Below, piece after piece: positions 11,637 to 16,252 of a DNA stretch of 64,000 nt. The DNA lies in the NCBI RefSeq assembly GCF_003709565.1, contig NZ_QNRC01000018.1, forward strand, positions 1 through 64,000. Direction: 5' to 3'. This stretch comes from Paracoccus sigandri. Its GTDB lineage: Bacteria > Pseudomonadota > Alphaproteobacteria > Rhodobacterales > Rhodobacteraceae. A program made the translations under genes and the position numbers. Numbering within the stretch: position 1 is the stretch's first letter; every line of letters starts with the position of its first letter. A model generated the notes under the pieces. That model was not told where the DNA came from. It was given only the letters and a program-made list of their open reading frames with translations, and did no database searches.

Positions 11637-12155
11637 CTATTCCCCGTCTTCCGCGCCGTCGCTCAGGAATTCGCGCGGGTCGAAGCCCGGCCCCTTCGAG
11701 GCGGCGTATTCCTCCAGCTCCTCGATGTCGCGGGGCGGCGATTCCGGCAGATAGACCTTGATATAGTCGCCATGCGAGGCGAAGACCGTCTCAACCCCGC
11801 TGTCCAGTCCCAGCTTTTCCCGCAGCTTCTGCGGCAGGACCAGCCGGCCCTCGCGGTCGATCTCCAGGTCCATCGACTGGCCGTTCATCAGCTGTTCCAG
11901 CCAGCGGCGCTCCTTGCTGCCGCGGGTCAGCCGGTCGATCTGTTCGTCGATTTCCTCGATGGCCTCGATGGTATAAAGCTCGATCCAGTTCCACCAGTCG
12001 GGGCCATAGACGGCGACAAGCTGGGTGCGGCCGGTATTGCCGGCGGCGAAGCCCGGATCGCCGGCATCGAAAACGCGACGCAGCCGGGCCGGGATCGACA
12101 TGCGACCCTTGCCATCGACCTTGACGGTTTCGGTGCCTCTGAATTTCCGCGCCAC
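11637..12155 (-). CDS. mraZ: Transcriptional regulator MraZ
   Basis: MraZ is a nucleoid-associated AbrB-like regulator of the dcw operon. The 172-residue product contains two SpoVT/AbrB-type repeats, [17 protein letters not shown] near residue 10 and [21 protein letters not shown] in the second half. I choose the GTG at 12155 ([17 protein letters not shown]) because this fits the family start; the frame stays open to 12254 with unlikely sequence that covers the terminator hairpin. It is the first gene of the dcw cluster and lies downstream of an unusually long leader. Confidence 0.93.
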
Positions 12156-12194
12156 CCTGCGCCCGCCCTCACTGTCCCGGCTCTTCCGCCCGCC

Positions 12195-12420
12195 CGAAAG
12201 AGAAAAGGCGGATCGGGCCGCTGCCACTGCCCGATCCGCCGCCCTCGTTCCCATGTCTGGGCCCCGTCATTGCGGGGTTGCCCTTTGCCGTCGCGTGCCA
12301 CCTGGGGGAGGTGCTGCTCGCACACGCGGCCGGGTCGATTTGGAAAACGGGTGCCTGTATGAAGCCTGCTTCGCCTTCGTGGGGTCTTGTCGCCCCTTGC
12401 ACTGCCCGCTTTCGTGATCT
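12195..12420 (-). ncRNA. Candidate UpsM-like leader sRNA of mraZ
   Basis: In R. sphaeroides the dcw cluster is preceded by a long 5' leader from which the sRNA UpsM (about 200 nt) is made by partial termination ahead of mraZ. Here a complete intrinsic terminator lies 40-85 bases upstream of the mraZ start, in the same position and with no gene to terminate. The 3' end is set by that hairpin. The 5' end given is only a guess from the known length. A second small hairpin with GAAGC/GCTTC arms lies near 12361-12372. Confidence 0.5.
12196..12240 (-). terminator. Terminator-like hairpin inside the mraZ leader
   Basis: The perfect 12-bp arms GGCGGATCGGGC (12207-12218) and GCCCGATCCGCC (12229-12240) enclose a 10-base loop. 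On the minus strand the hairpin is followed at once by TTTTCTCTTTC. It therefore has full intrinsic terminator form, yet mraZ starts only about 50 bases later. It should act as an attenuator. Confidence 0.75.
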
Positions 12421-12814
12421 TGTTGTGGCATGGGAATTCAAGGGAAGCAACGGTATTCTGCGGCAGCGGGCGCCATTATTTCCGGGCGGAACGGTTCAGA
12501 TTCTGTCACAAAATGGCCGGGATCGACCTGATTCCGCAATTATTGGTAAATGTGCCGCGCACAACCACAAGATATAGTCGCACCCGACTGTGGCAGAAAA
12601 TCCCAGTTTCGGCGGCCCGCTAAGCGGGACATCGCTCAAAAACCTTCAGCCATTCCTCATGTTCATGGATTAGACCGTTCGAATCACGGCGAATCACGAT
12701 CCCGAGACAGAAGGCGCAGCAGCAGCCGGCACGCGCCCTGGGGCATTCCCATGAAATCCCTGCCGTCCCGTGAATTCCCGTCCGCCGCCCCGTTCCCCGC
12801 CCGGACCCGACGCC

Positions 12815-13948: not shown

Positions 13949-14251
13949 ATGGAGCATGCGCGACGCGGCCACAACCACCCCCATGCGACAGCGCGCCGCA
14001 GTCCTGACAAACGCTTTCAAACACAGGGGAATCACCCGTTTTCCGTGATCGCTAACGGAAAATGCTGCACAATTTTCTGTTAATAATTCAGTAACAAACA
14101 GATGAATAGGTCAGCACCAGTCATGCGATTGCTGCATGGCAGCATTACTGAAACAGGCGTTGTGCAAACGCAGCATCAGGGCCATCTTTGTCTCACAGCG
14201 CCGGGCCATCCGGGAACGGTGCGGAAGATGAGATGTGAAAGGAATACGGAA
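13949..14251. other. Intergenic region between mrp and the DUF1127-hairpin locus
   Basis: About 300 bases, AT-richer than its surroundings, carry the divergent promoters of mrp and the DUF1127 gene. Small dyads occur at 14130-14144 (TGCTG-CATGG-CAGCA) and 14157-14171 (GCGTT-N5-AACGC). A weak sigma-70-like pair TTGTGC-N17-CATCTT (14160-14188) points towards the DUF1127 gene. I could not find a convincing heat-shock promoter, which is what drives the R. sphaeroides counterpart. No protein gene is supported. Confidence 0.4.
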
Positions 14252-14476: not shown

Positions 14477-14487
14477 GAATTCGCTTT

Positions 14488-14554
14488 CCCGCCCCCTCCT
14501 CCTCCCGGGCGGGATCTGGCGGCACCCTCCTCTCCTCCTCCCCGGAGGGTGCCG
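14488..14554 (+). ncRNA. CcsR-like unit 1
   Basis: Hairpin 1 pairs CCCGCCC (14488-14494) with GGGCGGG (14507-14513). Hairpin 2 pairs CGGCACCCTCC (14520-14530) with GGAGGGTGCCG (14544-14554), a perfect 11-bp stem. The CCTCCTCCC loops are at 14498-14506 and 14534-14542. Confidence 0.8.
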
Positions 14555-14570
14555 CCCAAAGGACCGAGAC

Positions 14571-14639
14571 GGACCCACTCCTCCTCCCAGGGTCCCGATC
14601 GCAGGCGGCGGCCTCGTTCCTCCTCCCAGAGGCCGCCGC
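14571..14639 (+). ncRNA. CcsR-like unit 2
   Basis: Hairpin 3 pairs GGACCC (14571-14576) with GGGTCC (14590-14595). Hairpin 4 pairs GCGGCGGCCTC (14605-14615) with GAGGCCGCCGC (14629-14639), a perfect 11-bp stem. Motif copies are at 14580-14588 and 14619-14627. Confidence 0.8.
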
Positions 14640-14673
14640 GAAAACATAGCCGCCCCAATTGCGGCACAGCACA

Positions 14674-14747
14674 CGACCGGCTCTCTCCTCCTCCCTCCCG
14701 AGCCTGTCGTCAGCGGTGAAGCCTCTCCTCCTCCCTGGCTGCACCGC
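14674..14747 (+). ncRNA. CcsR-like unit 3
   Basis: Hairpin 5 pairs CGACCGGCTC (14674-14683) with GAGCCTGTCG (14700-14709), one mismatch. Hairpin 6 pairs GCGGTGAAGCC (14713-14723) with GGCTGCACCGC (14737-14747), one mismatch. Motif copies are at 14687-14695 and 14727-14735. Hairpin 5 has the largest loop (16 nt). A 34-base spacer containing CATAGCCGCCC precedes the unit, and a similar one follows it. Confidence 0.8.
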
Positions 14748-14780
14748 ACCCCATAGCCGCCCTGTTCGCGGCAACCCGAT

Positions 14781-14851
14781 GCGGCGCCCCTCTCCTCCTC
14801 CCAGGGCAGCCGCAAGCGGCAACGGCCTCTCCTCCTCCCGGCCCTTGCCGC
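14781..14851 (+). ncRNA. CcsR-like unit 4
   Basis: Hairpin 7 pairs GCGGCGCCCC (14781-14790) with GGGCAGCCGC (14804-14813) across an internal loop and is the weakest. Hairpin 8 pairs GCGGCAACGGCC (14816-14827) with GGCCCTTGCCGC (14840-14851), one mismatch. Motif copies are at 14794-14802 and 14831-14839. Confidence 0.78.
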
Positions 14852-14859
14852 ACCCCATA

Positions 14860-14940
14860 CGCGGCCCCTCCTCCTCCCTGGGCCAGCGTTGAGCGGCGGC
14901 GCCCCTCCTCCTCCCTGGGCGCCGCCGCGTTTCCTTTTCC
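14860..14940 (+). ncRNA. CcsR-like unit 5 with terminal terminator
   Basis: Hairpin 9 pairs CGCGGCCC (14860-14867) with GGGCCAGCG (14880-14888), one bulge. Hairpin 10 pairs GCGGCGGCGCCC (14893-14904) with GGGCGCCGCCGC (14917-14928), perfect over 12 bp, and is followed by GTTTCCTTTTCC. It probably doubles as the intrinsic terminator of the whole locus. Motif copies are at 14870-14878 and 14907-14915. Confidence 0.8.
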
Positions 14941-16226: not shown

Positions 16227-16252
16227 GACACGCATCGAGGAGGAGAGCCCGC

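Follow-up and report, generated by a model that had tools for sequence, protein, structure and literature searches.

Anatomy of the locus

Downstream of a short, ccaF1-like DUF1127 gene, the window (the whole stretch of 64,000 nt analyzed here) carries a row of ten hairpins on the plus strand (Table 1). The gene lies directly upstream of the array, with 22 nt from its stop codon to the first loop motif, and a DUF1127 gene likewise precedes the array in 26 of the 31 Paracoccus loci that we examined, as well as in other Rhodobacteraceae. In Paracoccus, the array is nearly always found between rlmJ on one side and the DUF1127 gene with a divergent mrp ATPase gene on the other; the order mrp(−)/DUF1127/array is common to several genera, and rlmJ is the addition seen in Paracoccus. 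By motif scan, five further DUF1127 genes of this genome stand without a hairpin array. Second, shorter copies of a DUF1127 gene plus array, with 2–5 hairpins, occur at eight loci in several Paracoccus genomes; they have no mrp or rlmJ neighbors but share the promoter block. DUF1127 proteins may work via contacts with other proteins instead of by binding RNA (PMC12501420), a point that counts against the interpretation given below.

The array is also close to the dcw cluster, with mraZ at 11637–12254 on the minus strand. The mraZ leader of R. sphaeroides yields the sRNA UpsM. A UpsM-like sRNA in the neighboring mraZ leader (12255–12814) was considered and set aside, as no convincing terminator was found there.

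Table 1. Features of the DUF1127 gene, its upstream block and the hairpin array, in window coordinates
Feature	Coordinates	Strand	Evidence
TGC-N7-GCAT, predicted LsrB-type T-N11-A box	14124–14137	+	about −70 to −57, assuming a transcription start ~7 nt past 14187
Palindrome TGCTGCATGGCAGCA with CTGCATGGCAG (14132–14142), candidate PhaR-type operator	14130–14144	+	match to PhaR site
RpoH-like promoter core TTGTGC-N16-CCATCT	14160–14187	+	aligned block in 26 Paracoccus loci; R. sphaeroides operon transcribed under RpoHI/RpoHII (PMC10253847)
DUF1127 gene (ccaF1-like), 74 aa	14252–14476	+	Pfam PF06568, E 5e-13, over cut-off
Hairpin 1, CCTCCTCCC in loop	14487–14514	+	fold
Hairpin 2; unit 1 with hairpin 1	14518–14556	+	fold; CcsR1 match 14483–14560, 34.5 bits
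Hairpin 3	14565–14601	+	fold
Hairpin 4; unit 2 with hairpin 3	14605–14639	+	fold; CcsR1 match 14561–14644, 40.1 bits
Short motif-free linker hairpin after unit 2	14649–14665	+	fold
Hairpin 5	14673–14710	+	fold
Hairpin 6; unit 3 with hairpin 5	14713–14747	+	fold; CcsR1 match 14669–14752, 29.2 bits
Short motif-free linker hairpin after unit 3	14756–14772	+	fold
Hairpin 7	14780–14814	+	fold
Hairpin 8; unit 4 with hairpin 7	14816–14851	+	fold; ar14 (RF02344) match 14774–14894 spans hairpins 7–9, 47.4 bits
Hairpin 9	14859–14891	+	fold
Hairpin 10 (14893–14928), then GTTTCCTTTT; probable intrinsic terminator	14893–14937	+	fold, Rfam, compensatory changes in relatives
Unit 5 (hairpins 9 and 10)	CcsR1 match 14852–14933	+	39 bits

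A fixed loop on freely varying stems

The motif CCTCCTCCC occurs exactly ten times on the plus strand between 14498 and 14915 (positions 14498, 14534, 14580, 14619, 14687, 14727, 14794, 14831, 14870 and 14907) and nowhere else on either strand of the window, whereas 1.08 copies on average, and never more than 4, occur in 100 sequence shuffles. In the MFE fold of the plus strand, all ten copies are unpaired, each within a separate hairpin loop, and the individual hairpins range from −13 to −30 kcal/mol. The ten motif-bearing hairpins described in the initial annotation are thus reproduced, as is their placement, with adjustment of the ends from 14488–14940 to a first core stem starting at ~14487 and a last one reaching 14928. 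The layout proposed there is incomplete in one respect, which is that two additional short hairpins without the motif occupy linkers. The last motif hairpin and the GTTTCCTTTT that follows it probably form an intrinsic terminator, although a simple terminator scan with a loop limit of 8 does not detect hairpin 10, the loop of which exceeds 8.

Because register shifts in the loop flanks spoiled plain MAFFT alignments of the hairpins, from which usable pair counts were obtained for the terminal hairpin only, we relied instead on an arm-swap test, in which the 5′ arm of each hairpin is paired with the 3′ arms of the other hairpins. Within the window, own arms pair with a mean of −21.3 kcal/mol versus −13.9 kcal/mol for swapped arms, and not one of 10,000 permutations reaches the stability of the real arm pairing. 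The same difference is seen across the genus (−20.5 own versus −13.5 kcal/mol swapped, for 400 of 565 distinct Paracoccus hairpins), and when the arms of the terminal hairpin are aligned separately across relatives, 45 compensatory cells are counted versus 14 in shuffles. This is direct evidence for an RNA structure in which the loop is fixed and the stems are free to vary, and it bears out the earlier claim that the stems differ and yet remain paired. The arm-swap test alone is strand-blind, and we therefore assign the array to the plus strand on the basis of gene order, the terminator and homologues.

Relationship to the CcsR and cuckoo RNAs

At gathering level, an Rfam scan returns no match at the array. 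A permissive scan returns CcsR1 (RF02791) four times (E 2e-4 to 1e-7) and ar14 (RF02344) once (E 6e-7), with the best CcsR1 score (40.1 bits, E 1e-7) lying below the gathering threshold of 65.3 bits and the ar14 score (47 bits) below that of 59 bits. We file the array under the broader cuckoo family rather than as an Rfam-grade CcsR1. The CcsR1 model consists of two hairpins, and the array therefore reads as five two-hairpin units; this predicted grouping, which agrees with the initial annotation, derives from the sub-threshold CcsR1 and ar14 matches and from the mostly even hairpin counts in relatives.

The closest known system is that of R. sphaeroides, in which RNase E, with the involvement of CcaF1, releases four CcsR RNAs from the ccaF1 3′ UTR, and in which the operon is preceded by an RpoHI/RpoHII promoter and closed by a terminator (PMC10253847, PMC8625941). 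The present locus resembles it in having a DUF1127 gene followed, on what would be the same transcript, by a tandem series of RNAs of two hairpins each with CCUCCUCCC in the loops, as well as in its RpoH-like promoter and probable end terminator, and the mrp neighbor is also present in Cereibacter changlensis, a near relative of R. sphaeroides. It differs in having five predicted units rather than four, motif-free short hairpins in two linkers, and rlmJ downstream; its stems and linkers have diverged from those of CcsR1–4, and the Rfam scores therefore fall under the curated threshold. Cuckoo RNAs (the CIN1 locus) are defined by 2–4 hairpins with the loop motif and unconserved helices (PMC4504443). 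The present locus shares with that definition (Reinkensmeier and Giegerich 2015) the loop motif, the variable stems and the adjoining short DUF1127 gene, whereas its ten hairpins stand in one uninterrupted row that is presumably cut into pairs. Rfam, synteny, structure and the literature together support the earlier proposal of a CcsR/cuckoo RNA locus; it corresponds to the ccaF1-CcsR/cuckoo (CIN1) locus of R. sphaeroides.

Two further RNA systems are informative by comparison. ar14, or NfeR1 (SmelA075), of Sinorhizobium has the identical loop motif on variable stems and an LsrB-type box TGC-N7-GCA at an equal distance upstream of the start, but it is a free-standing three-hairpin sRNA with a sigma-70 promoter rather than an array in a DUF1127 3′ UTR. 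The alphaproteobacterial sRNAs AbcR1/2 similarly have anti-Shine–Dalgarno loops, mostly transport and metabolism targets, and LsrB/VtlR control; they are nonetheless different in sequence and structure, and their locus is linked to lsrB.

Copy number across Paracoccus and the Rhodobacteraceae

At least one pair of the motif is found in 98/101 Paracoccus genomes and in 219/296 genomes sampled across the family. The array is thus kept across both genus and family, and the locus is real, well conserved and an ordinary member of an already known RNA family. Hairpin counts in 57 distinct Paracoccus loci range from 3 to 17 with a median of 10, and 46 of these loci have 8, 10, 12 or 14. Other Rhodobacteraceae loci have 2–13 hairpins, including 13 in Cereibacter changlensis, 11 in Rhodobacter ruber, 10 in Gemmobacter lanyuensis and 10–11 in Nioella. 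The description of the array as “expanded” in the initial annotation is therefore not upheld: with ten hairpins, the locus sits at the Paracoccus median and has equals outside the genus, and it is larger only when set against the eight hairpins of R. sphaeroides. These counts settle that arrays of many hairpins are the norm for Paracoccus as well as for its relatives, with the four CcsR units of R. sphaeroides being one point within the range of 3–17 hairpins. The largest array that we observed (L050) belongs to a Rhodobacteraceae genome outside Paracoccus (G264, contig C1, ~334949–335565 and beyond), in which 25 motif pairs are arranged in near-exact three-hairpin repeats of ~142 nt.

We see an even chance that copy number is a neutral outcome of tandem duplication and loss, with no division of labor among the units. 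Block duplications are visible, with a ~183-nt period in genome G088 and a 142-nt period in G264, and counts vary between close species; moreover, the three loops of NfeR1 are redundant in action (PMC10746234). On the other hand, the even counts and the narrow mode of 8–14 suggest some constraint. Neutrality of this kind would concern the number of units only and is compatible with a role of the units as anti-Shine–Dalgarno sRNAs. With this natural copy-number series, one can ask whether it is dose that matters or division of labor.

Targets and the probable function of the loops

The sequence complementary to the loop is GGGAGGAGG. We looked for targets by pattern search, bearing in mind that any strong Shine–Dalgarno (SD) sequence is a possible partner; in this genome, GGGAGGAGG lies 3–10 nt upstream of an ATG at 11 sites, which belong to 10 genes, versus 1 for the reversed pattern. 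Six of these ten genes encode transport proteins (three ABC ATPases, a purine/cytosine-type permease, TctB and DctP). Among 64 non-redundant GGGAGGAGG-N-ATG genes from 31 genomes, 20 are transporter parts, compared with 2/62 behind the control SD AAAGGAGAA and 9/68 behind GAAAGGAGG (one-sided Fisher, 2e-5 and 0.01, respectively), and because the transporter classes were assigned non-blind, by Pfam and by reading of N-termini, this enrichment behind complementary SDs is suggestive. It agrees with what is described for NfeR1, which pairs at translation initiation regions through the identical motif and for which ABC transporter mRNAs are predicted targets, two of them confirmed (PMC10746234).

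With a probability of roughly 0.8, we interpret the locus as the Paracoccus ccaF1-CcsR (cuckoo, CIN1) operon, from whose stress-induced transcript about five two-hairpin anti-SD sRNAs would arise and lower the translation of uptake and catabolism genes. By analogy with R. sphaeroides, a single transcript induced by stress would comprise the DUF1127 mRNA with the ten hairpins as its 3′ UTR, and RNase E and CcaF1 would process these hairpins into about five RNAs of two hairpins each. Every loop would then present CCUCCUCCC, an anti-SD sequence, and pairing of these loops with ribosome-binding sites, mainly on uptake and catabolism mRNAs, would reduce translation.

It is unlikely that the ten identical loops serve instead as a sponge that titrates a protein, such as the DUF1127 protein, Hfq or RNase E, rather than pairing with many mRNAs. 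The loop is precisely anti-SD, transporter genes are enriched behind complementary SDs, and NfeR1, with identical loops, acts by pairing according to reporter assays in S. meliloti (PMC10746234), all of which count against a sponge even though identical loops on free stems resemble one binding site in many copies, CcsR RNAs are bound by Hfq and affected by CcaF1 (PMC8307010, PMC10253847), and counts of 3–17 leave the locus intact, as expected if total dose alone matters. Highly improbable is that the hairpins serve only the processing, stability or termination of the DUF1127 mRNA and that their loops have no targets in trans, since, for all that the array sits directly in the 3′ UTR and its last hairpin is terminator-like, one hairpin suffices for a terminator, ten identical 9-nt loops with diverging stems and family-wide conservation demand selection on the loop, and in R. 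sphaeroides CcsR1–4 have a trans effect on flhR (PMC8307010).

Within the window, the ribosome site GAGGAGGAG of pdhA (pyruvate dehydrogenase E1 alpha; 16235–16252) is complementary over 9 nt to the extended loop sequence (−18.6 kcal/mol). CcsR reportedly lowers PDH in R. sphaeroides. We nevertheless do not count pdhA as a direct target, since many relatives keep only an ordinary SD there and several do not have it.

A conserved composite block upstream of the promoter

The promoter core, which we take to resemble the sigma-32 consensus of heat-shock sigma promoters, is retained in most named loci. By homology with the R. sphaeroides operon, the array would come under RpoH control. Immediately upstream of the core lies the block CATGCGATTGCTGCATGGCAGCATT. 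TGC-N7-GCA is present in 60/61 array promoters, including those of genera with ~50% DUF1127 protein identity, versus 88/4750 background windows (1.9%). The exact form TGCA-N6-GCAT, which is the LsrB motif of nfeR1 at −72 to −57 from the start (PMC10746234), is found in 34/61 promoters, with the window having TGCG in place of TGCA. The overlapping CTGCATGGCAG exactly matches the PhaR site CTGCNNNGCAG that PMC12542648 quotes for R. sphaeroides, and CTGCN3GCAG occurs upstream of 53/61 arrays versus 4/615 background windows. Since 9/61 array promoters are without an exact PhaR-type site, binding of PhaR is uncertain, and a reading of the palindrome as purely a PhaR operator is weakened by the stricter retention of TGC-N7-GCA (60 versus 52 of 61). 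It is possible that the predicted LsrB-type box and PhaR-type palindrome both serve, as overlapping sites.

We tentatively suggest, as a proposal that we hold to be rather less than probable, that the DUF1127-cuckoo arrays of Rhodobacteraceae carry a composite switch, in which a box for an LsrB-type LysR activator overlaps a PhaR operator ahead of a heat-shock promoter. If so, stress, redox and carbon-store (PHB) signals would converge on anti-Shine–Dalgarno RNAs that damp nutrient uptake. We found no description of composite LsrB/PhaR control of CcsR RNAs in the accessible literature, and this conserved upstream block is the one point here that may be new. Along with the transporter-rich list of SDs, it suggests ways in which stress and carbon storage might be tied to nutrient uptake, and these can be tested.

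This genome has five copies of the pattern TGCTGCANNGCAGCA: one in the array promoter, one preceding phaP of the phaC-phaP-phaR cluster, one preceding a phaJ-like gene, and two at other places. It recurs before phaJ in two other Paracoccus. The PhaR-type palindromes located directly before phaP and the MaoC-like phaJ gene (L091:1501–1515 and L092:1501–1515) are useful PhaR reference sites in this genome.
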